64,000 nucleotides of DNA. Source: Zeus faber. Lineage: Eukaryota > Chordata > Actinopteri > Zeiformes > Zeidae. The translations under genes were made by a program, and so were the position numbers. The stretch covers positions 11,358,865-11,422,864 of the forward strand of contig OY482855.1 of NCBI GenBank assembly GCA_960531495.1, written 5' to 3'. A model generated the notes under the pieces. It was given only the letters and a program-made list of their open reading frames with translations. It made no database searches and was not told where the DNA came from. This document shows positions 34,755-63,304 of the stretch, one piece after another; positions within the stretch are counted from its first letter, which is position 1; the number at the start of each line of letters is the position of its first letter.

Positions 34755-46040
<11,286 letters not shown>

Positions 46041-47286
46041 CGCTACGGGATTTCTGTCAAACATCGGTCTCGCGAGGTGCGGACGAGCGGTGGGCGTGGT
46101 GGCAAAGAGCGTTCTCGACGTGCGATGCGTTCAAGTCAAGTGGGGAAATAAGAATTAGCTTCGTCTTATAGTTTCACTTTTAGTTGTCCATGCGTTGGCA
46201 ATGTAAACTCACGCTTCCCAAGTCCTTTGAATCTAAAAACAAAAACAAAAAAAAATGGCATTGAATCACCGTTAAAGGCGTGATTACCGTAAAAATATCT
46301 TTAAATCAGAAAGTAATGACTAAATTACACCGATGATAGAACGCATTGGTCTTTATTTATCTATATTAAGCCTATCTATAATAGCTCTAGGTTACTTGAA
46401 AAATGAGTTTTGTTTGCTTTTATTCGCCATCTCGCGTTGGACATGAGGGGGGGGGGGGTGATATAGGTCAACTCAAAGATCACAAATAATATTTTCGACT
46501 TGAAGGAATGAAACTGAAGTGAAATTGTACTTTCAGGTCGGAAGACGCGTAATTTCCATCCCTCCCACATGACTTGAACGCTGCATCTGCGCACACACGC
46601 ACACTTACCTTTGCCGTGCGCTGTTGTTATTGTCACATAGGGTCGGTGCATGTTGAGTGTTCTTACTGAAATGCATCCTCACTGTCCGTGTATTGGCTGT
46701 AAATCCAATGTAATTTGCAACTAGTAGACCTCGTTGTTGAATTAAATCATATAACCAAATGTATAATACAACCCATCTGAAAAATACATTTGAAACAAGA
46801 AACCGGGCCCATCTAATTATAGTGACTAGACGTTTGTCTCCCCCTAGCGACACCCGTTGCGAACTACAGCACATGAAAAGCGCCACAAGTACAAAAGAAT
46901 AACGGTATTTTATTTTATTTTATTTTATTTTTAGATCGATATTTCGCCTGCGAGATGAAAACAAGCCGTTCGGGATCGTTCAATCGTTGGAGACGCACTC
47001 GACGGGGACGGGAGTGAACACATTCCTCCCGCAGCGTGGACGCGTCCGTGTTGACAAACTTGGGAGCCGCCGCCGTTGTCCGCGGACCGTGGGTCTCCGC
47101 GTCAACTCGCGGGGCGCCGTGGGGGCGGCACCGACGCTTTGTTTGGGTTTGGTGGAGTAGGAGGAAACCGAGCCCTCCCGTGGCCTCGGGGCTTCCGACG
47201 GGGAGGTTCGGATGAAGGTGCTCCGCTTACGCGATTAGGGACGCCTGGGATCCCGTTAACACGCGAGATTCGGCCCCGGTCTCGGC
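46041..47286. promoter_or_regulatory. Head-to-head GGA1 / MICALL1 intergenic region
   Basis: GGA1 starts at 46040 going left and MICALL1-like sequence starts near 47287 going right. CpG-rich patches flank it (45750-46110 and about 46960-47330). The middle is AT-rich, with a G run near 46447-46457 and a TTTTA pentamer array at about 46902-46933. It may act as a two-way promoter; I see no defined core elements. Confidence 0.4.
46902..46933. repeat. (TTTTA)n pentanucleotide array
   Basis: Six or so units, ending in TTTTTAG. Confidence 0.85.
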
Positions 47287-47405
47287 GCGCTCCTCACCGG
47301 GAGCGGTCCCGCTCGTTCTGCCCACGACACCCCAATGTTGACATAAGGGAAGTGTCGACCTCGTTCAGAGATGGACTTCATCCACAAACATCGACCTCGC
47401 TCCAC
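47287..47405 (+). pseudogene. Broken first CH-domain exon of MICALL1
   Basis: 47319-47373 reads CPRHPNVDIREVSTSFRDGL, a good match to the start of the MICAL-like calponin-homology domain (C..YPNVDIR..STSFRDGL). Directly after it the expected AFCA is missing and the frame shifts, so that IHKHRPRS follows in another frame (net loss of 11 or 14 nt). Upstream, GCGCTCCTC (ALL) and GAG-CGG-TCC (expected EWC) are two bases out of frame, with W and C altered. No in-frame ATG fits. A normal donor GTAAGT follows at 47406. Confidence 0.65.
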
Positions 47406-48415
47406 GTAAGTAACGATAACGAGGCTCCTGCGCACTTCCTCTTGCAGGTAGAGCTGCAAGTCTTTTTATTTGGTATTTTATATGTATTTAGTATATTTAT
47501 TTGTATTTATGTATGATATTTAAACTTTACTAAACTTATTTTATGAAAGTGACTCATTTTATTTATTGACTACTCTTATTTAAATTAACGATTTAATTTT
47601 TTTTATTGCATTGCAATTCATTAAGTTATTGTAATTTAATACAAATGAACTGCTTGATATTTCGACCTTTCAACCTCATGGACACGAGAAGTGCGGTCAG
47701 GTAGTCAGGTAGCAGTGACGCTCAGCTCATTGATGCGGCATTTAAAAAAAAAACCTCCCTGATCCCTTGGAACCAATGTTTGAAACTGTTCCGGATCTGG
47801 AACATTACCATGTCATCATGAGGCTGTAGGAGGCCGAAAAACCTGCTGCTCTTTCTTGAACCTGAGATGCTCTCCTCCGCCGGATCCTCCTGTGCTCACG
47901 TTTCCCTGTTTCTAGCCCCGCAGGTTGTGGGAACACCATACCTTTTGCATAGAACAAATAAGCTCAAAGAAGTACCTCAAGTGGGTCCCCAATTTGTGTC
48001 GGTTCCATTCCTATCTGCATGATCTCCATTCAGTTTTAGCACATGTTTAATAACAAATTCTAATTTCTTTAATAACCCATGACTTACTGTCTTAACTTTG
48101 CTCCAGAGTGTAGTCTGCCTTGGTTTAAATGGTCTCAAAATGGCATTGCCTTACTAGCTTTGTGTACAGTTCCTATTTTTATTTGGTGTATTTCCATTGT
48201 ATATTTTGTATATTTTTATATAGATATTTACATTTTAAAATTTGTCATCATAGTGCTTGACTTTGAAACAACCTGCTTGAACATCTTGGACTGCCAAATG
48301 CCAATTGTCTTTAATTTTCTTCCTTTCCAAGTGTTGTGCAATTGGTAATATTCATTGAAAATGGAAAAATACAGAATAGAATATTGATCCCTCATTATCT
48401 TTCCTGATTTGTAAG

Positions 48416-48555
48416 GCCCTTGAGGTTGCAGAGACCAAACTGGGGATCCCTGCCCTGCTGGATCCAGAGGACATGGTGCCCGATCGTCAAGGTGTCATCA
48501 CTTACCTCTACCAGTTATACTGCTTCTTCAATCACGCTGTGAAGCTAATAGAGGG
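48416..48555 (+). pseudogene. CH-domain exon of MICALL1, with in-frame deletion
   Basis: Reads [20 protein letters not shown], then [20 protein letters not shown], matching the second half of the MICALL1 CH domain. About four residues are lost between EDMV and PDR. Acceptor TTGTAAG and donor GG|GTGAAG look usable. The exon that should join it to 47405 (KDNVYENN region) is not found between them, so the CH domain cannot be complete. Confidence 0.6.
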
Positions 48556-48954
48556 GTGAAGTGGGGGCGGAGGATTTTTGAATTTGTTGTTTTGTCAGGC
48601 CACGTCACTGTTGATGCCATCACATTAACGGTAACTAGAATTAAAGCCCACTGCTCCTAGATACGTAAGATACTAGGATGGGTAAATGCAGAGAAATTGC
48701 GAATTTCCCCGTTGTGGGACTGATAAGGGTTTATAAATAAATAAATAAATAAATAGATAGGTAAATAAATCAATAAATAAAGGCTGGATTCCCTTTAACG
48801 CTTGAAAAGTCCTGTTGGAAACTGGAAGACTTTACCGCAGATCTGGCTTCTCCTTTACAAGTGTTCCCCATCCACTTTCCACTCTACCTCTCTTCCCCAT
48901 AATGCCCCAAAGAGAGTCATCAAAGAGTCATCTATCAAAACAAGATTAAGAGTT

Positions 48955-49262
48955 CTTCGTCATTTCTCAACACTCGCATACACTGAAAGAAAATTTGTCC
49001 TCTGCCTTTGACCCATCTTACATACCCTAGGAGCAGTGGGCAGCTGCAGTGCAGCACCCAGGGACCAACTCCTGCTCTTTTTGCCAGCGCCTTGCTCAGG
49101 GGCACCAGTAGGAGTATTAACCCCAAACTACATGTTCTTTTACGGTGAGAGGAAATCAAAGCACCCGGCAGAAACCCGCACAAACATGGGGCCAGCCGGG
49201 GTCTGAACCCGGGACCTTCTTGCTGGGAGGTAACAGTGCTATCACTGAGCCACTGTGCCGTC
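48955..49262. repeat. Teleost dispersed repeat (copy 2)
   Basis: Longer copy of the repeat at 34985-35175, ending in ACCTTCTTGCTGGGAGGTAA and a CACTGTGCCGTCC end. Lies between the broken MICALL1 5' exons. Confidence 0.75.
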
Positions 49263-49368
49263 CAAATAGACACAGAGCACATCTTAATCCATACAAGGCC
49301 TTGTATGTCAAACAAATTTGCTCATGTCACAATGTGTGTCACCTGATTGCATTCTCTTTACTCTGCAG

Positions 49369-49478
49369 CCAGTCCTGCCAGTTTGGTGTCATCCCACGCC
49401 ACAGTCCAAACCAATCTCATAAAGAGCAAAGTTTCCGCTGCCGTGAAACCCCCTCAGGGGTCATTTAAAAAGCGCACA
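49369..49478 (+). pseudogene. Possible MICALL1 linker exon remnant
   Basis: Acceptor CTCTGCAG, then SPASLVSSHATVQTNLIKSK in the frame that best resembles a Ser-rich linker. That frame does not join in phase to the exon ending at 48555, and no clear donor follows. Homology is weak. Confidence 0.3.
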
Positions 49479-50053
49479 TAACTCATAGCTCATGTCAACG
49501 GCATTTTCTTTTATCTTGTTTGCTATGTTGTCACAGTCGGGCGCCAGCTTTTCTTCTATTTTCAGACCTCGTCTGGTCATTGTTCTCGCACAGAAGGTGA
49601 TGGATCCAGACGCAATCCAGTGATTGTGTGCACTTTGTTTAGAAAGCATGTTCATCTGGTACAGAGGCATCTAGTGGAAGGAAACATCTACCATCGCACC
49701 AATCCATCCACCAATTCAGTCAACCTACCACCGTACTTGGTCATCTGGCCTCGGGTCAGCTGTTTTTGAACCACAACACTTCCCCTCATGACCAAGTACG
49801 CTGGCCAGGTTCACTCAAATGAAATACAACGTGGGCTTACGTATGTTACTCCCTGGTAAAATCATTCTTTTTATGAGGTTCAGCAATCAACTGGGGTATT
49901 TTGATTCAAACTTTGAGTTTCTTTGATTCTAGTTATTTGAGATTCAGTACTATCAAATGCACAAGGCAATCACTGCATTTTGTGCTCCATTAAGCCCTGT
50001 ATACAAAGTATCACTAATGCCTCTCAGTGAAAGTCCTCATTCTCGTATTTCAG
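49479..50053 (+). other. Region lacking the expected LIM first-half exon
   Basis: No CXXC...H zinc-finger half is visible in any frame, and no other gene. Ordinary AT-moderate sequence. Confidence 0.4.
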
Positions 50054-50206
50054 ATGCAAAGTATGCAGTAGCAGCCTTCTCCCCAGATCTTATAGACCAG
50101 GACGGGGTACCGGCTCATTGATCTGCACAGCTGCCCCGACCTCGGCGGGCAAATTTGACCGACCAAGAATCGGCCCAAAGTTGAGTACCGCAAAGATAGA
50201 CGGTCT
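50054..50206 (+). pseudogene. C-terminal half of a LIM domain (MICALL1), zinc ligand lost
   Basis: After TTTCAG the frame reads CKVCSSSLLPRSYRPGRGTG, then SLICTAAPTS. It matches the second zinc finger of the MICALL1 LIM domain (C..C......L......G.F.C..H), but the final His/Asp ligand after C is replaced. The first LIM half (C..C HVHLVQR) is not seen between 49480 and 50050. The frame reaches TGA at about 50205, or could splice at CT|GTGAGC. Confidence 0.5.
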
Positions 50207-50357
50207 GTGAGCATACTTGCTCATTACACTCAGAAAACAGAGTCACAAGACGGCTAGGCGCCTGGAAGAGGAGAAAGCAGAGGCTCAAAGGTCAAGCTAA
50301 GGAGGCCCCCCCCCCCCCCCGGCCCGGCGTCACATACGAGATCTGCAGCCCAGCTAG

Positions 50358-53300
50358 GAAAGCAGGACGCCCACCCACCTGGCAGACTTGCAGGAGGACG
50401 CGGCAGAGGCTCTAACCCCCCCCAGGCTCACCGCTCCATCATCAGGTGTTTCACTTTCAGAAGGAAGTCGTCTGCCATTTGCGTCACCGAGACACATGAA
50501 CGTAGACTCTTCCGTGCCGCCTGTTCCTGCGCCCAGAAGCAAAACAGTAGAGAAAATGAAGAGCTCCAGCTCTACAGGTGAGTATTTGCTGAGTCTCCCA
50601 GACATTGTGTGTGTGTATGTGTGTGTATGTGTGTGTGTTTGTGTGTGTGTTTGTGTGTGTGTTTATGTATTATGTAACATCAAATTGACTGACTGAAAAC
50701 ACTTTTCATTTCCTGTCTGTTCCTCTGCGCAGGAAAACCATCCTCTCAAACTGAATCTCCGCCCGGTTCCTCCAGCATGTAAGTGTATCAAAACCAAACA
50801 GCACAATCTTTTAAAAGTCGGGCCGGCACATTTGCTGTGCTTCAAAGTCAAGGAACCTTGATGGCAAAAGTAAAATAATCGTCCTCATATTTTGCCATAT
50901 ACAGCAGCGTTCACTACCATAATAACTCTCCTCCTCATATTTGTAATACCTTAACCATTAGTGTTATTGTTATTCCACCTGTGTAATATCCAGTACACAG
51001 ACACTTTTACCAAATTATCCGCGGATCTCACATGGGTCTCGGCGTCTCATATGATGCTGATAATTGTTTCATTCTGTATGGCTATTAAAGTTTATATTTG
51101 ACCAGTAAAAACATAATCGCAAGAAGCTATAGGCTTTTACTTTTCAAGACATTTATAGCACAATTTTAAGAATGGAAAAGATTCAGTCCTGTATTCCACA
51201 ATGAAAGATGAAACTGCCGGTGTGAAGTAGATCGGATGAACGGTTGTCGAGATAATCAAAGGACATACAGACCGACAGAGATTCCTTCCTTTATAGTTCG
51301 ATAAAAAATGATTTTTGATCATTCTCAGTTGCAGAAAGAACGGCTACAATTCTCACCTGCCCTTAGGTCACTAAAATGTATTTTTTTCCCCATTGTCCTC
51401 TATCTTCTAACACTAGTCCGACCAGCCATAAAGTCAAGATGAACCATCCCTGGATGGCCATCATCCACCCAGGACCATGGACACAACTTCCCCCTGCACC
51501 GGCCCCCATGACTCCTCCTCGATCAAGCTCCTCCCCTGCCATGCGAGGGACTTGGTTCAAACCCAGGGCCATCCCCAGCAACCCTTTTGGTGACATGAAT
51601 GTGGACACTAATGAAGATGCAAGAAAGGAGGCTACTGAGCCTGAAGCTGCCACCCAGTCAGCAGACACACGTGGTCGGCTGAGCTCAGGTGACAATACAA
51701 ATGATAAACCAGCGGATAAACCGGTTCCATTGAAGAAAGATGCTCATAGTGATCCCCCTTTACAGAATTCAGACTGGGCAGAGAGAGATGGTTCAGCTGC
51801 TTCCCACAGCCCTTCCGGTACGAGCGGAAGTGGTAGTCAAAGCACAGACGACCCTAATGCACCTGATCTACCCCAATCACACTATGTGGTCAAAGCCGGT
51901 CCTGAAGGTTCACTTGGGGAACCTGAACTCGCTAAGTTGACTGGTGGACTTGCTGTAACCTGCCTGGCAGGGAGAGTGACCTCAGTGGATGTATCGGTTC
52001 TGTCTCAAGTTGCTGGTGTTGATGGTTTGACTGGAGGTTCAAGTGGAGCTGGAGGAATTCCCGACATGGCCGTCCCTGCAGAAGTGCTTGGAGTCGTCCC
52101 TGATATGGCTGCAGCGGCCAGTTCCTTTGGATTGCCCAGCTTGACGGGAGCGGGTGGCCCTGATGGTTGTCCTACTACTGTGGGTGGTGTAGGATTACCA
52201 GGGCTTGTAGGCGCAGCCGTGGGACTGGAGATACCAGGCTTAGATGGAGATGGTGGGATGGCTGGTGGACTGTCAAGTGAATTTGGTGTTTCTGAACAGA
52301 ACACCGAATTTGGTGGACTTGGGTTGAATGAATCGGTAACGGGAGGTTTGCCAGGAGGTTCAGGTGAAGCATCAAGTGAGCACGGTCTTCCAGATTTAGC
52401 TACAGAAGGTGCTCTCAGTGAACTGGCTGGGGGTGAGTTCAACATTGATCTTGGATTACCCGGTTTAGCAGGATCCTGTGGCTTAGACACTTCAGCTGAT
52501 ATTGAGGGTGATTGTCCGTGCTTGGCCGGTGCTGCTGGTGGAATGGCCTTCCCCGACCTGGCCGAAGGTTTTGCAGAGACGGCAGGGCTATGTGGCCTGT
52601 CACCCGTTGCCCATAGTTTGCCCAAGGGCGTCTCTGTGCCAGCCCTCTCCTCCGCCATCCCCCACAGTCCTTCCGTCTCCTCTGAGCAGCCCGAAAAAAA
52701 CCATTGTGGTGGAATGACACAATCAAAGAGCAAGGTAAGATGTTGTACGTTACATGTCGTGGTGCACAGTTTAATGTCGTCCATCCTAGCCGCATGGACT
52801 GTTTGGTTGACACAAATCAATATAGTGCATATGTAAACGGTTCCTAATACAATCCAAGTGCTTTATTTAGTGTTTGCCAGAAACAATGATATGAATATCC
52901 TGTGCTGCTTGGTCAGTTTGATCAATAGACGTAAAGTTAAAACATTCAACGTTGTCAGAAACAAACATCTGACCGTACTTTCATCAGTACCTTGTCCTGA
53001 TTGAGCTGATTGTCACGCGTGTTATTGGAGATCCATCAAGTTTTCAATGCACATTACTTTCAGATAAATCAGGTGCATATGAACAGCATTCTACTGTACA
53101 TTCTGTCACATAAAATTTGATATTTCCTCCAAATTGTGGCAGCGAACACAACCCTGTAACTATGTAACTGAATTGAACTCACCAAAAGCTAATGATCCTA
53201 AATTACCCACAGTAGGTTTTAATTGAGGGTAAAGTGACTGTAGATCATAGAGACCGTCAACAACTCAATGATGTGTGTATTTGTTTTCTTTTTTCCCTTT

Positions 53301-54473
53301 TCTGTTTTTAATCGCGTTCCATTTTCGTCAGGCCTGCAAAGGGAACCCTTTTGATCGAAAATCTGCTATTCCTAAATCGGAGACTTTTCAGGCCACTCCG
53401 TCCAGGCGGGCACCTGCTCCCGGATATGGTTTCCCTCCCATCAAGAGGAAGGTAATGTCATATATTCTGTAATATATTATGACGAACTTGAGACTTGATT
53501 TAGACTTCACTTAATTTGATTTAAATGGATGATCATATAACATTACAAGATAGGACCGAATCAGTTGGGAGTTTGAACTCATTGTGATATTGTTATATAT
53601 ATTTTCATTTATATGTATTGATATTGCGTTAAAATGATATTATTCTAATAACAAATTATTTCCTGGAACTATATACACATTAACATTGAGCCGTCGGGGC
53701 CGTTACTTGTGTTTCAAGTGGAAAGTGGATTTACCCAGTTTTCCCTGAAAGTGCCAATCTACAAAAATGTAAAATATAATCTTTAACATAAATAATGTAT
53801 GTTAAATGTATAAATATTTATTCCCACCTTGTAAATATTGTTTAATTAAACAACGTTAACCTCATTAGCCTGTCACTTTCTGACAGCAGTTTTGTTTTGA
53901 AATGAAAATCTGACGATATTTGTCAAAAGAAAAGCCACATTGTAGAACGTGAAATAAAGCTTAATTTCAATGATCTGATATTCTGCTTTGTTTTTCTATT
54001 TCACTTCCATTTGGTATTTGACAGCGAGTTTTGTCTATTTATGTTCAGGTTCAAACAGATCCATTCCTTCCCACTGAAGACCTGCAGGTGGAGATGGGAA
54101 AACTGAACGAGCGGCTGGAGGCGCTGGAGCTAAGAGGCGTCAGAATGGAGAAGGAGCTGAGAGATTGCAAAAATGGTAATTTATTGATCAGAGTTTTACA
54201 CAATGTAATGATTTTCCATGTAATAACGATGATGATAACATGCATGTTAGCACGAGTTGTATATATCTAATATATTCTGCGCAGGTAAGTTTGTAAATCC
54301 AGCAGTAGAATGGGCTTTACTACTGTGGTAGTGGGCAGTGGGCAGTGTTTTTGGCGCCATCGGCAGATGGGGGGGAGGTGGGTTTGCTCACTTTCTCACC
54401 TGACAGTGACGTTGGGCTCCCATTGCAGAGCTGTCTGACATTCATCTTATGAGACAAACGTCTGTATTTTCTG

Positions 54474-54522
<49 letters not shown>

Positions 54523-57500
54523 CAGCAGCTTTTAAAGCCTGCTAATTACCCCTGCTGGTTGCCAGTGTTGGCTGCCACCACCTGCAGATTGCGCCAAAAC
54601 CACAACTGCATTTCAACACTTTGCTGTAGTTTGCAGCTAAATAATGAATCACTATATATATAAGCATATAAATTCATAGACCCATTTTTGTGACTTGAAA
54701 ATGTGGCCTCTCATCAACAATTTTCTTTAAATGAAGGTCATATACTGCTTACTTAATGGTGCAACAGTGCCTTTTAACGTATCCATTTTTTATCCCAAAG
54801 AAATTAAATGTTATCTGCGCATATGATGCACATATTTTGTTTTGGCTTCACAGTTTCATGGAGACTATTCACTGGTATTATTTCTTGTGCGTTATTTCTT
54901 GTAACTGTTCTCTAAAATTGTTATTCATATTGTTCTTCTCCTTGTTTATATTATTATTTATTTTATTTATTATTATTCCACTCTTTTCACCTGGATATCC
55001 GTTGTAGACTCCACCAGTTTAATACAAACAAACTCTATCCAAATATCTCAAATCCTGGATTAACAAAGCTCACTGACGTTGCAGTTGTTTGACTTTGACT
55101 TTCATAAGCCGTTTTAAAAGCCCTTACTGAGATGCTTGTGTTCAACAGTCCCACAAGATGCTCCTGGGTGTTTGATCTTTGGATTGGTGGACAGTTACAA
55201 TATGTGTCTATGGTTTCCTTTCAACTCCAGAGAAAGAGGAAGAGGAAATGCTGCTGGACTGGATGACCCTCGTTCACGAGAAACGCGTGCTTGTGCGGCG
55301 CGACACAGAGCTTGTCCATCTGTGAGTGAAAAGACCATATCATATTTTTACCTTATTTTTACCGCACATCCGAAATTTACGTTGAAGCTTTCTATGGCTT
55401 TTGTCTTCTCTGTGTGAAAAGGGCCAAGCAGAAGAAATTAGAGGAGAGGCAGGAGGATTTGGAGTATGAGCTCCGATGTGTTCTTATCAAACCAGGTGAA
55501 CTTATCTATCTATCTATCCATCTGATTAAATATGATGTGGTCCATAACAATGCATTGTGAATCAAAGCAGACGATTGTTATTGCAGCACAATAACAATTG
55601 CCCTTTTTGTTTTGTCATCAAGAGGAGTATCTTAAAGGGGACCTATTATGCTCATTTTCAACAAGTTAATATAGGTCTCTGAGGTACCCAAAACAGCCAT
55701 TCTAGCCATTCTGACATGCCTCTATATCCCTCCTGTTCTCGATGGGCTGTTTTGGTGTGTGCCGCTTTAAATGTAAATGAGCCGCCAGGCCCCTAGTTCT
55801 GGGAGCCAATGGGGGTTTGAGCATTAGTAGGGTTCCATTGTATGAAGTACGTAAACTTTCACCGATTGTACCTTAGCAGTCCAACAAAATTTTAGGCGAG
55901 AGCTAAGCAATCCAGGTGCAGAATCTTCACTCATAGATCTACAAGGCCCTATCTAAAGGTTTTTTCCGACTTTCGTAGGACACGGGCACTGCTGGTTACA
56001 CGGGACGTGACACCGCACCAGGCTTTTTTTGTTTCATTTACATTTACATTTACATTTAGTCATTTGGCAGACGCTTTTATCCAAAGCGACTTACAAGGGA
56101 GAATAACATTCAGCTACATTGCGACAGAGATTAGTGTAACAACAACATTGGTGTAACAATAAATACTGCAAGGTGGTGCAAAGTAATTGTAGATTAGGAC
56201 AGGAGGTACTCACTGAAGAGCTGGGTCTTCAGGTGCTTCTTAAAGACAGAGAGGGAGGTCCCCGCTCTGGTCATTTTTGGCAGCTCGTTCCACCAACGTG
56301 GAACTACAAATGAGAATAGCCTGGATTGCCGTGGCTGTATGGCCGGCAGAGCCAGGCGACGCTCATTTGACGAGCGCAGCATCCGGGGGGCAACATGTGC
56401 TCTTACAAGAGCATTTAAGTAGGCGGGAGCATTCCCAACAATCACTGTGTAGGCCAGCATAAGAGACTTGAACTTGATGCGGGCGGCTACAGGTAACCAG
56501 TGGAGCTCGATGAGCAGCGGAGTGACATGTGCCCTCTTTGGCTGGTTGAACACCAGTCGCGCCGCCGCATTCTGTATCATCTGTAGTGGCTTCACCGCAC
56601 AGGCCGGCAAGCCTGTTAAGAGGGCGTTGCAGTAGTCGAGACGGGACATCACCAAGGTTTGTACCAGCAGTTGAGTGGCATATTGGGTCAGGTACGGCCT
56701 GACTTTTCGGATGTTGAGTAGTGCGAAGCGGCAGGACCGGGAGACTGCGGCAACATGGTCCGAGAATGTCAGTTGGTCATCAATAATGACACCAAGATTC
56801 CTTGCAGCCTTGGTAGGAACAAGAGATAGAGAGTCGATTTTAATATCAATGTTGTGATAAATACCTTGTTTGGCCGGGAAGACCAGCAGTTCCGTTTTCG
56901 CCAGATTTAGTTGAAGATGATAATCCTTCATCCATGTGGATATGTCAGCGAGACAATCCGAGATCCGCGTCGAGATAGTAGGGTCGTCTGGCGGGAAGGA
57001 CAGATAGAGTTGAGTATCATCCGCATAGCAGTGATATGAAAAGCCATGTGAGCGGATGATTGGGCCCAGTGAGGTGGTGTATATGGCAAAGAGGAGGGGT
57101 CCTAGCACCGAGCCTTGGGGCACCCCTGTGGTGAGGTTGTGAGGCACAGACAGCTGGCCTCGCCATGTCACACTGAACGAGCGCCCAGTAAGGTAAGATT
57201 CGAACCAGGAAAGTGCACTGCCCGTTATGCCCATGCTTGAGAGTATGGACAGGAGTATGCAATGATTGACAGTGTCAAAAGCAGCTGATAAGTCAAGCAG
57301 AATGAGGACCGAGGATTTGGCAGCAGCTCTAGCAGTTTTTAAGGCCTCTGTCACAGACAACAGGGCTGTTTCAGTGGAGTGACCACTTTTGAAGCCAGAT
57401 TGAAGTGTATCAAGAAGGTTGTTTCTTGACAGGTACTCTGTAACCTGTCTAGAGACCGCCCTCTCTAAGGTTTTGGAAAGGAATGAGAGGAGAGAGACCG

Positions 57501-59837
57501 GCAGATAGTTTCCTACTTGATTGGGATCGAGTGAGGGTTTTTTGAGCAGTGGTGCGACCCGAGCCGCTTTGAAAGCGGAAGGGAAAGTGCCGGAAGTTAG
57601 GGAAGAATTAATCACATGTGTGATTGCCGGGGTGATAGTCGGTGATATGGCTTGAAGGAGGTTGGATGGGATCGGATCTAGCGGACAGGTAGTGGGACGG
57701 CTACATGTTAGTAGTTTAGATACCTCACTTTCAGCGAGGGGGGTGAAACCAGGGAACGATGAGCCTAGGGCTGGAGAAGACAGGTTGTGAGTAAGTTGTT
57801 TAGTGAATTGGCTGCTGATGGCTGCCACTTTGTTAGTAAAAAAGGAGGCAAGGCAGTCAGCAGTGAGGTTAGTAGGTGGGGGAGGTGGTGGAGGGTAAAG
57901 CAGAGACTTGAAGGTGGCGAATAACTTACGTGTGTCTGTGGCACCGTTGATCCTATCGTTGAAGAAGGCCTTCTTGGCAGCAGTGATGCTGGAAGAGAAG
58001 GAGGACAGCAGTGTCTGGTAGCTAGCAAGATCCTCAGTTGTTTTGGATTTGTGCCATTTCCTCTCGGCTGCTCTGAGGTCGGTGCGCGTTGTCCGGAGGG
58101 TGTCAGTCAGCCAAGGGTGCGACTGGGTTGAACGAGCAGGTCTGGTGGATAGTGGACACAGGCTATCCAGACATGAGCTCAAGGTGGAGCAGAGGGAGTC
58201 AGTGGCATCATTAACCTGCAGAGAGGAGAAAGTGCCGTGGGGTGGAAGAGAAGAGGAGAGCACAGAGGAGAAGTGGGTGGGAGACAAGTTGCGGAGATTG
58301 CTGCGGATAGTAACCATGGGTGGGGAGGTGGGGGGTTGTTTTGGTAGCTGGACATTGAAGTGGATGAAGAAGTGGTCAGAGAGATGAAGAGGAGTGACCC
58401 ATAGGTTGTCGGTGGTACAGCTCCGAGCAAGAATGAGATCAAGCTCTTTGCCAGCCTTGTGAGTCGGTGGAGTCGGGATCTGTCTTAGGTCGAACGAGCG
58501 AACCAAAGACAGGAAGTCAGCCGAGCTCGCACTGTCCAAGTGGATGTTCATGTCTCCGAGGACGAGCATGGGACACTCGTGCTCAGGGATTGATGACAGC
58601 AGGGTGTCAAGCTCATGTAGGAAGTCACCTAGTTGTCCTGGTGGACGGTAGATGACGACCACATAGGCTTTCACCGGAGCAGTCACCAAGACGGCGTGAT
58701 ATTCAAAGGAGGCAAAGTTGTTTAAAGGCAGTTTGTTTAAAGTTGTTTAAAGTTGTTTTAATCAGGAAATGTCAGAAAATAAAAGAAATACATCTTCAAT
58801 AAAAACAAACAGACTGTGCACCGCATACCTATTTTATTTAAAAAGTAAATAATTTTTGAAAGAAACACACAGCAGAATTATTTATAAAATACTGATTTAT
58901 GAAAAACTCATTTGCAGTTTTTTGTCAGACACTTAAATATGTATCTGTATTAAATCCTCTTTCTTTTGAAAGATTTGTGGGCAGCACTTGGTAGTTCTCC
59001 AGGCATGGGTGGTGTTACTCACATTGGGGGCGGTTGTAATTCTATTGAGTCTCAACGTCACGTAAGACTGAGACACAAATCTGAACGGCTTGCTGAATGA
59101 CATGTTTTCAGACATAGGCAGCTCACAAAAAAAACTGTAAATGTATGTGCACAAGCACTGAAAAAAGTGAGTTTTTTCATAATAGGTTCATCCCCTTTAA
59201 AGTCAAGTGTAGTCAGTGGTGTGATTTATCGATGCCACGCGTCGTATCCCCAACATGCAGAGAGCGAGTGGAGCGCGGAGGATCGAAGTCACGAGCATCA
59301 GCTGATGGACCAACTGGTCACGGTCATTGAAGAGAGGAACCAGATCATCAGCAGCTTAGATCAAGACAGACAGAGGTGCACAGGGTTTTCACATTCTCCA
59401 CATTTGTAGCAGCAATAAATAGATATTTAACAAGGTTTTTTTTGTCGTTATACAGGGAAAAGGAAGAAGATATTGTGCTGGACGCCATGATGGAGAAGAA
59501 AGGTATCTTCTCTTGCATATGCAGAGTCCATCTGTTTTCAGCCCAAGGCTCTTGGGAGTTTAGCAAAAAAATAAATAGGCTTGATCCTGGACTCAAATAT
59601 AATAATGTCCTTGTCTTCGTGGGGGAAAGTCAAGAAGAATCCCCAAACACTTACCATTTCAGAACATTCTTTTGTAGATGACGTCCACCATTTCACTCGA
59701 GCGCGCTGTGCTGCGTTTCCTTTCTAGAACTCCAAAAAGAGGGATTGAAGGAGCTGAAGAAGTCCAAAGGGAGATTCAAGCCCATGAAAGTGTTTAAGAT
59801 GCTTAGCGCTAAAGAACCCAAGGAGAAGAAAAGCTGA
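50358..59837 (+). CDS. micall1: MICAL-like protein 1, C-terminal part (NPF motifs and bMERB coiled coil)
   Basis: MICALL1 binds Rab8/Rab35-type GTPases and EHD1 on recycling endosomes. Exons: about 50358-50577 (start unsure), 50733-50778, 51417-52734, 53332-53451, 54049-54175, 55231-55321, 55422-55495, 59261-59375, 59456-59502, 59728-59837; phases match through to the stop. NPF motifs that can bind EHD1 lie in SNPFGDMN and CKGNPFDRKS. APGYGFPPIKRK precedes the bMERB helices (VQTDPFLPTEDLQVEMGKLN, RLEALELRGVRMEKELRD, DWMTLVHEKRVLVRRDTELV, EERQEDLEYELRCVLIKP, QLVTVIEERNQIISSLDQDR), and the end is basic (KSKGRFKPMKVFKML). Exon 51417-52734 is unusual: some 250 residues are rich in Gly, Leu, Ala and Ser. 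The 5' CH and LIM exons of the gene appear broken, so the true start is unknown. Confidence 0.8.
50604..50664. repeat. (GT)n-rich tract after a MICALL1 donor
   Basis: GT repeats with TATGT and TTTGT interruptions, starting about 27 nt after the donor at 50578. Confidence 0.85.
50779..51416 (+). other. micall1: MICALL1 intron, nothing recognised
   Basis: No repeat family or exon recognised. The acceptor before 51417 is CTAACACTAG. Confidence 0.5.
52735..53331 (+). other. micall1: MICALL1 intron, nothing recognised
   Basis: AT-rich. A strong pyrimidine tract sits at 53281-53330. No coding sequence. Confidence 0.5.
53452..54048 (+). other. micall1: MICALL1 intron, nothing recognised
   Basis: AT-rich, with no repeat I can classify. 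Confidence 0.5.
54176..55230 (+). other. micall1: MICALL1 intron with (GA)n tract
   Basis: Contains a pure (GA)n run at 54477-54519. The rest is AT-rich without coding sequence. Confidence 0.6.
54477..54519. repeat. (GA)n microsatellite
   Basis: About 21 uninterrupted GA units. Confidence 0.95.
55632..56030. mobile_element. Teleost interspersed repeat next to the LINE
   Basis: Opens with AAAGGGGACCTATTATGCTC, a start I recognise from many fish interspersed repeats, and ends where the LINE tail begins. Class and right border are unsure. Confidence 0.45.
56031..58730 (-). mobile_element. L2-like LINE, 5'-truncated, antisense in a MICALL1 intron
   Basis: The minus-strand frame (58689 down to 56194, about 831 codons) has no stop. 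It begins inside the endonuclease (YVVVIYRPPG, LVLGDMNIHLD, LSDHFFIHF), followed by a complete reverse transcriptase (VAPLLKKPSLDPNQVGNYLP, LLDLSAAFDTVNHCILL, TGVPQGSVLGPLLFAIY, HCYADDTQLYLS, KAARNLGVIIDDQL) and the C-terminal block LIELHWLPVAARIKFKSL ending in KTQLFSEYLLS. The 3' region carries the CAGACGCTTTTATCCAAAGC sequence common to fish L2-type tails and a (TGTAAA)n end, seen as TTTACA repeats at 56031-56057. The N-terminal endonuclease and ORF1 are missing. Confidence 0.9.
56194..58689 (-). CDS. LINE ORF2-like polyprotein fragment (endonuclease/reverse transcriptase)
   Basis: Uninterrupted frame of the element above. The first codon is TTG, and the frame stays open a little further upstream (LPLNNFASFEYHAVLVTAPV), so there is no true start. 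The reverse-transcriptase catalytic AFDTVN and YADD boxes are intact. The endonuclease lacks its N-terminal catalytic part, so the copy should not move on its own. The lack of stops over 2.5 kb suggests a young insertion. Codon use differs from the host gene. Confidence 0.85.
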   Translation of the reverse strand: MVTAPVKAYVVVIYRPPGQLGDFLHELDTLLSSIPEHECPMLVLGDMNIHLDSASSADFLSLVRSFDLRQIPTPPTHKAGKELDLILARSCTTDNLWVTPLHLSDHFFIHFNVQLPKQPPTSPPMVTIRSNLRNLSPTHFSSVLSSSLPPHGTFSSLQVNDATDSLCSTLSSCLDSLCPLSTRPARSTQSHPWLTDTLRTTRTDLRAAERKWHKSKTTEDLASYQTLLSSFSSSITAAKKAFFNDRINGATDTRKLFATFKSLLYPPPPPPPTNLTADCLASFFTNKVAAISSQFTKQLTHNLSSPALGSSFPGFTPLAESEVSKLLTCSRPTTCPLDPIPSNLLQAISPTITPAITHVINSSLTSGTFPSAFKAARVAPLLKKPSLDPNQVGNYLPVSLLSFLSKTLERAVSRQVTEYLSRNNLLDTLQSGFKSGHSTETALLSVTEALKTARAAAKSSVLILLDLSAAFDTVNHCILLSILSSMGITGSALSWFESYLTGRSFSVTWRGQLSVPHNLTTGVPQGSVLGPLLFAIYTTSLGPIIRSHGFSYHCYADDTQLYLSFPPDDPTISTRISDCLADISTWMKDYHLQLNLAKTELLVFPAKQGIYHNIDIKIDSLSLVPTKAARNLGVIIDDQLTFSDHVAAVSRSCRFALLNIRKVRPYLTQYATQLLVQTLVMSRLDYCNALLTGLPACAVKPLQMIQNAAARLVFNQPKRAHVTPLLIELHWLPVAARIKFKSLMLAYTVIVGNAPAYLNALVRAHVAPRMLRSSNERRLALPAIQPRQSRLFSFVVPRWWNELPKMTRAGTSLSVFKKHLKTQLFSEYLLS
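58731..59260 (+). other. micall1: MICALL1 intron, remainder after the LINE
   Basis: Starts with three AGTTGTTTAA-like units (58731-58757) at the LINE 5' break, then AT-rich sequence. No exon before 59261. Confidence 0.5.

Positions 59838-61527: not shown

Positions 61528-63304
<1,777 letters not shown>

Follow-up and report, generated by a model that had tools for sequence, protein, structure and literature searches.

MICALL1 exons in the window

We analysed a 64,000-nucleotide (nt) stretch of the Zeus faber genome, hereafter the window (contig OY482855.1 of assembly GCA_960531495.1; C11:11358865-11422864 in our contig numbering), which carries a MICALL1 duplicate on its + strand. The 5' exons of this gene, which in MICALL1 encode the CH and LIM domains, are decayed, and they are followed by ten exons, A-J (50461-59837), that remain open and encode a linker and a bMERB domain. 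A second MICALL1 copy, on contig C4 at 11.03-11.04 Mb, has CH, LIM and bMERB exons that are all open. The lesions, the open A-J frame and the second copy are seen directly in the assembly, whose 803 Mb in 153 contigs were the scope of all genome-wide searches. We consider it probable that the window gene is a duplicate in which CH/LIM coding has been disabled and in which the linker and bMERB exons still form an open gene for a short Rab adaptor.

Decay of the CH and LIM exons

The remnant of CH exon 1 (47331-47405, + strand) was recognized by a protein match and by anchored alignment to the C4 copy. It keeps PNVDIREVSTSFRDGL (47331-47378) and then, relative to the C4 copy, meets a 14-nt deletion that shifts the frame, after which it reads IHKHRPRS in a different frame; the donor gtaagt at 47406 is retained. 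A scan of 46900-47329 showed that the stretch from the last in-frame stop (47052) up to the remnant has no ATG in frame and a single one, at 47212, out of frame. An alignment of this exon over a wider stretch was dropped because it fell on an unrelated GC-rich part, with 10 of 200 shuffles reaching its score. CH exon 2 was not detected in 47400-48420, where 138 of 200 shuffles equalled the score of the C4 exon (41 of 200 when flanks were included). For CH exon 3 (48416-48535, + strand), homology to the C4 copy is clear (0/200 shuffles reach the score), and the exon has lost 12 nt, or four residues. It scores 23.9 bits against Pfam CH (cut-off 26) versus 90.1 bits for the whole C4 CH domain, and reads QGV and YQLYC where the C4 copy, human MICALL1 (in a form that agrees with published landmarks) and MICALL2-like genes have LSI/LSV and SQYYN. 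With exon 1 frameshifted, exon 2 undetected and exon 3 four residues short, the window copy lacks the N-terminal CH domain of MICALL1. An earlier note on this DNA had described all four features from the letters alone (a CH start running into a deletion that is not a multiple of three, a missing middle exon, a next exon short by about four residues and no fitting start codon), and each is borne out by the comparison with the C4 copy.

LIM coding is damaged in both of its halves. The first half survives as CTLFRKHVHLVQRHLVEGNIYHR (49629-49697, + strand), identified by alignment to the C4 copy at a score that 0 of 200 shuffles reach; its second zinc cysteine is lost (CxxC to CTLF), as is the 3' end of the exon, and the remnant diverges upstream of the donor present in the C4 copy. 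The second half, together with the remainder of the old exon, lies at 50052-50357 (+ strand; RCKVC...ICTAA, from comparison with the C4 copy). Its LIM part (50052-50129) ends in ICTAA versus ICTHH in the C4 copy, so that the last ligand pair has changed from HH to AA, and the exon downstream of the LIM part contains three in-frame stops. The alignment of the whole LIM2 exon is weak, with 15 of 200 shuffles reaching its score, and we therefore restrict confident homology to the LIM part. Joined together, the LIM remnants matched no family at E≤1; the C4 LIM domain scores 34.8 bits. Zinc ligands of the MICALL1 LIM domain are thus lost in both halves. The earlier note was right about the lost last zinc ligand, and it missed the first half in describing LIM as a second half only.

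Two other features lie among these remnants. The decayed LIM2 exon includes a 15-base run of C (50306-50320), the kind of run at which consensus indels happen, and a tRNA-like sequence resembling a short interspersed element was noticed by eye on the - strand at ~49190-49265, between the CH exon 3 and first LIM remnants.

An open frame across exons A-J

Exons A-J have AG/GT borders and matching phases and together encode 721 codons whose sole stop is terminal. Over their 2165 nt no internal stop and no break of phase occurs; a random sequence with the 3' base make-up would have ~33 stops in 720 codons, which excludes chance as the cause of the open frame. The locus is therefore not disabled throughout, as a whole-locus pseudogene would be. 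The earlier note had the exons from 50733 to 59837 keeping phase and stop, which holds; its frame start at 50733 does not, as the frame begins one exon earlier. Exon A (50461-50577, + strand), with a candidate acceptor at 50460, is in phase with exon B, and its C4 counterpart is the terminal 3' portion of the LIM2 exon; the open frame begins at 50461, or just past the in-frame stop preceding 50358.

The remaining exons, all on the + strand, were defined by splice borders and phase, with additional evidence as given here. Exon B (50733-50778) is followed by exon C (51417-52734), which encodes the linker with an NPF motif (SNPFGDMNVDTNED) and has 0 stops in the coding frame versus 34 and 19 in the remaining two sense frames. 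Exon D (53332-53451) holds a second NPF motif (KGNPFDRK). The bMERB domain starts in exon E (54049-54175, with a domain match) and continues through exons F (55231-55321), G (55422-55495) and H (59261-59375) to its end in exon I (59456-59502); exon J (59728-59837) encodes the C-terminal tail and the stop codon, and exons F-J are each supported by protein matches. Between ~51950 and 52610, exon C encodes a 228-residue stretch rich in Gly, Leu and Ala (52 G, 29 L and 29 A) with GLPxL-type motifs, whereas the C4 linker is rich in Pro and Ser. The antisense strand of exon C carries a Pro/Ser-rich open frame of 285 residues.

Repeats occupy parts of two introns. Exons G and H are separated by an intron that holds an antisense long interspersed element (LINE) at 56054-58746 (- strand), with an open frame of ~850 residues that matches reverse transcriptase (119 bits) and endonuclease, and with a UnaL2 3' element; this LINE may be young. 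Between exons B and C, intron positions 51220-51300 are part of a dispersed repeat with at least 49 matches (40 of 1523 candidates scored, from a 601-base query), mostly of ~80 bases at 85-95% identity.

bMERB domain and NPF motifs

The C-terminal bMERB domain of MICALL1 is present in the window copy, scoring 131.5 bits against PF12130 over model positions 2-131 of 134 (C4 copy, 156.6 bits). In a tree of bMERB domains it is placed with MICALL1 and not with MICALCL, grouping with the C4 copy and human MICALL1 at low support (82/90, drawn open). Sixteen Mical-1 positions are tabulated as Rab10 contacts in Table 3 of PMC5026484. We transferred these by alignment, assuming PDB chain numbering from residue 918, with which the letters fit at 16/16 positions. 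Ten of the 16 are identical in the window product, five at site 1 (L956, E964, V978, K981 and V985) and five at site 2 (L1011, E1030, V1038, R1044 and I1048). Three are changed conservatively (L975 to M, L1034 to M and V1041 to I). Polarity or charge differs at two, N982 (R in the window) and D1045 (N in the window and C4 copies alike), and V971 lies opposite a gap in the alignment. Rab binding by the predicted product is thus plausible.

The EHD side of the adaptor looks different. The window product would contain two NPF motifs and one DPF, and neither NPFGDMNVDTNED nor NPFDRK has a long acidic run; the NPF motifs of the C4 copy are NPFEENDEEEEEEE and NPFDEDDELDEEE. Binding of EHD1 by MICAL-L1 is reported, in passages of PMC13282721, to require the first NPF plus an acidic tail, NPFEEEEED. 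Because the surviving NPF motifs have no long acidic tail, EHD1 binding by the window product is probably weak. The earlier note had proposed that loss of CH and LIM would leave a pure Rab/EHD adaptor: the Rab-binding domain is indeed kept, the acidic-tailed NPF for EHD1 is not, and we modify the proposal to Rab binding with weak EHD1 recruitment.

The second copy and the neighbouring genes

As a protein query, the window CH exon found four places in the genome (five candidates scored): the window itself, C4:11038932 (- strand), C11:24322063 and C4:13513364. A third CH copy of MICALL1 did not turn up in this search of the genome. We take the last two places to be MICALL2-like genes, a name based on their CH, LIM and bMERB exons. 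Upstream of the window copy, a head-to-head neighbour contributes a VHS-domain exon (43924-44040, - strand), and VHS exons adjoin both MICALL1 copies (C4:11046402 and the window exon). This neighbour is presumably GGA-like, judged by its N-terminus. Downstream lies a polr2f-like exon (61978-62115, + strand; RNA_pol_Rpb6, E 1.3e-5, 25.6 bits with a cut-off of 26). With the human gene order as reference, the window copy has conserved neighbours of MICALL1 on both sides, the VHS exon being found at both copies and the polr2f-like exon at the window copy.

At least three gene pairs are common to C4 and C11 (MICALL1, the adjoining VHS gene and the MICALL2-like genes), a pattern compatible with whole-genome duplication, which is the most likely origin of the window and C4 copies as a duplicate pair. 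The comparison with the other micall1 copy that the earlier note had called for finds the C4 copy whole and the window copy broken at its 5' end, and it supports that note's suggestion of an a/b duplicate losing domains, with CH, LIM and bMERB open on C4 and VHS exons beside both copies.

Several observations were made around these loci. A different group of bMERB exons (IHxLVxxRDFLV[DE]D) has one member 55 kb from the C4 MICALL1 and one near a VHS gene on C11; they are possibly from BMERB1-like genes encoding bMERB only, BMERB1 being an alias of C16orf45. A genome search with Rpb6 matched neither C4 nor the window, where the gene is split by introns, and found a single place, on C141. Near that Rpb6/omega match, this 63-kb unplaced contig (40001-50000) looks bacterial, with dense open frames that by eye include RelA/SpoT-like pieces and a transposase-like frame, and it is probably a contaminant or symbiont.

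Proposed promoter and translation start

A CpG-rich stretch extends from the head-to-head VHS gene to the old MICALL1 exon 1 (45650-47700), with a CpG observed/expected ratio of ~0.9-1.5 that reaches 1.1-1.5 at 46.9-47.7 kb, around the old exon; the C4 copy is CpG-rich at this place too. The CpG profile of the window revealed no CpG-rich stretch at 50-52 kb. We regard 45650-47700 as the likely old promoter common to the VHS gene and MICALL1. In-frame ATGs are found at 50496 and 50556 in exon A and at 51439, from which products of ~709, 689 and 659 residues, respectively, are predicted by hand count. The only ATGs of the LIM2 exon upstream of 50496 are at 50054 and 50063, and they form one short upstream frame.

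We infer the promoter, start site, protein and function of the window gene as follows. The old CpG-rich promoter, common to the VHS (GGA-like) neighbour, would still drive transcription, and the dead CH/LIM exons would be skipped or left in the 5' untranslated part. Translation would begin at ATG 50496, 50556 or 51439 and yield a product of ~660-710 residues. A shortened protein from a new start is the most likely outcome because a 721-codon frame exists in phase with in-frame ATGs. Such a product would bind Rab GTPases through bMERB and would have neither CH actin binding nor LIM partners. With no CH and LIM it could not adopt the state, reported for MICAL-L1, in which CH closes onto bMERB and would be permanently open. 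Its recruitment of EHD1 would be weak, and the C4 copy would carry the full-length MICALL1 work. A further idea, which we offer tentatively and consider doubtful, is that the short product acts as a natural antagonist of, or dosage brake on, full-length MICALL1, occupying proteins of the Rab8/Rab13/Rab35 family with no actin link and little EHD1.

Substitutions, lesions and alternative explanations

Differences to the C4 copy at codon positions 1/2/3 are 0.24/0.20/0.60 in the 5' remnants (112 codons) and 0.30/0.14/0.49 in bMERB (146 codons). The first of these patterns indicates long selection at the protein level, so the disabling of CH/LIM coding appears to be a fairly recent event relative to the split between the two copies. 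Counting one-sided changes between the window and C4 copies, with human MICALL1 outside, gave 23 versus 4 and 31 versus 9 in the two halves, both of which evolve faster in the window copy.

The best-surviving alternative, which we judge unlikely, is that the entire gene is a young pseudogene, killed by its 5' lesions and covered by the C4 copy, with exons A-J open for lack of time. Several results favour it and weigh against a working short adaptor. The dN/dS-type contrast between 3' exons and 5' remnants that the earlier note had proposed as a check did not appear: the ratio of nonsynonymous to synonymous differences (pN/pS) is 0.31 in bMERB versus 0.27 in the 5' remnants, equal within error (bootstrap interval of the difference -0.17 to 0.10), with synonymous sites near saturation. 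Conserved sites have changed as frequently in bMERB (15/60) as in the 5' remnants (12/62; Fisher p 0.52). The bMERB branch of the window copy, at 0.61 versus 0.12 for C4, is about five times longer and implies relaxed constraint on the 3' half too. In addition, the first in-frame ATG, at 50496, has a weak start context, and the acceptor of exon G and the donor of exon H are off consensus outside AG/GT. The substitution tests covered bMERB on the 3' side; the exon C linker reads differently from that of the C4 copy. On the 5' side, the tests used alignable stretches only (113 sites; 112 codons) and left out the CH exon 1 start, all of CH exon 2 and most of the LIM2 exon, so the 5' part looks better kept than it actually is.

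Against a pseudogene stand the distribution of the lesions, the intact AG/GT dinucleotides at the A-J borders and the preserved Rab-contact positions (identical or conservatively changed at 10/16 and 3/16, respectively). All counted frame lesions are 5', and if five to eight lesions were scattered evenly, the probability of this would be 2.6e-3 to 7e-5 (~943 nt 5' and 2165 nt 3'), a rough figure, as the 5' length is estimated, the lesions may be dependent and the 3' part was picked for being open. In these alignments the two halves differ in their lesions alone and cannot be told apart by substitutions.

Far less probable is an unrecognized working 5' end, such as new upstream exons that would give the short adaptor a different N-terminus. 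Our scan of 46-50.4 kb covered CH/LIM homology and simple frames, and short new exons could escape it; however, nothing CpG-rich and promoter-like is seen near 50-52 kb, and the CH/LIM remnants are ordered as in the C4 copy and resemble the old 5' end. Least probable of all is assembly or consensus error, which the earlier note had raised as poor assembly: the C run in the decayed LIM2 exon is indel-prone in consensus, but the window has no Ns, the damage is diverse over 3 kb (14-nt and 12-nt losses, substituted zinc ligands, stops and a missing exon), the adjacent coding exons are clean over 2165 nt, and 47287-48600, the one 5' piece searched at the DNA level, is single-copy in the assembly apart from three short repeat-like matches.

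Comparison with known bMERB proteins

Among the matches listed, no open-access paper concerned CH/LIM loss in MICALL1 by its title, and our search of the open-access literature found nothing on zebrafish micall1a, micall1b or ohnolog domain loss, the teleost micall1 matches being unrelated by title or abstract start. Look-ups in PMC4214196 and PMC4163657 turned up no CH or LIM passages.

Full-length MICALL1 is an adaptor of tubular recycling endosomes with the order CH-LIM-NPF-bMERB. The window gene resembles it in the NPF linker, the bMERB domain and the C-terminal tail FKPMKV, and resembles the C4 copy in the order of its exon remnants and in its VHS neighbour. It differs in that CH and LIM cannot be encoded, the acidic NPF is weakened, exon C is rich in Gly, Leu and Ala, and bMERB changes faster. 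From what the sequence encodes, the window product is expected to bind Rab with no CH-actin linkage and with weak EHD1 recruitment.

Proteins with a bMERB domain and without CH, LIM or monooxygenase exist, namely Mical-cL (MICALCL) and C16orf45, as described in passages of PMC5026484. The window product is predicted to be like them in having bMERB without CH or LIM, whereas the window gene differs in being a MICALL1 duplicate with the decayed CH/LIM exons still in place. In EHBP1, bMERB keeps the protein's own CH domain closed until Rab8 binds, according to passages of PMC7442826. EHBP1 illustrates that interplay between CH and bMERB is possible within the family, but it retains CH and has a C2 domain, neither of which the window product would have. 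The same source reports both that the CH domain of MICAL-L1 folds onto bMERB and that a biochemical study could not detect such contact in Mical-family members. Restraint of the MICAL-L1 Rab-binding domain by CH is thus unsettled, and a natural bMERB copy with no CH or LIM offers a ready test of bMERB alone. The bMERB architecture without CH and LIM is already known; what differs here is its origin from a MICALL1 duplicate in which the lost domains are still visible. The locus clearly shows a duplicate in the course of shedding entire domains at one end, and the genome supplies its partner copy as a reference.

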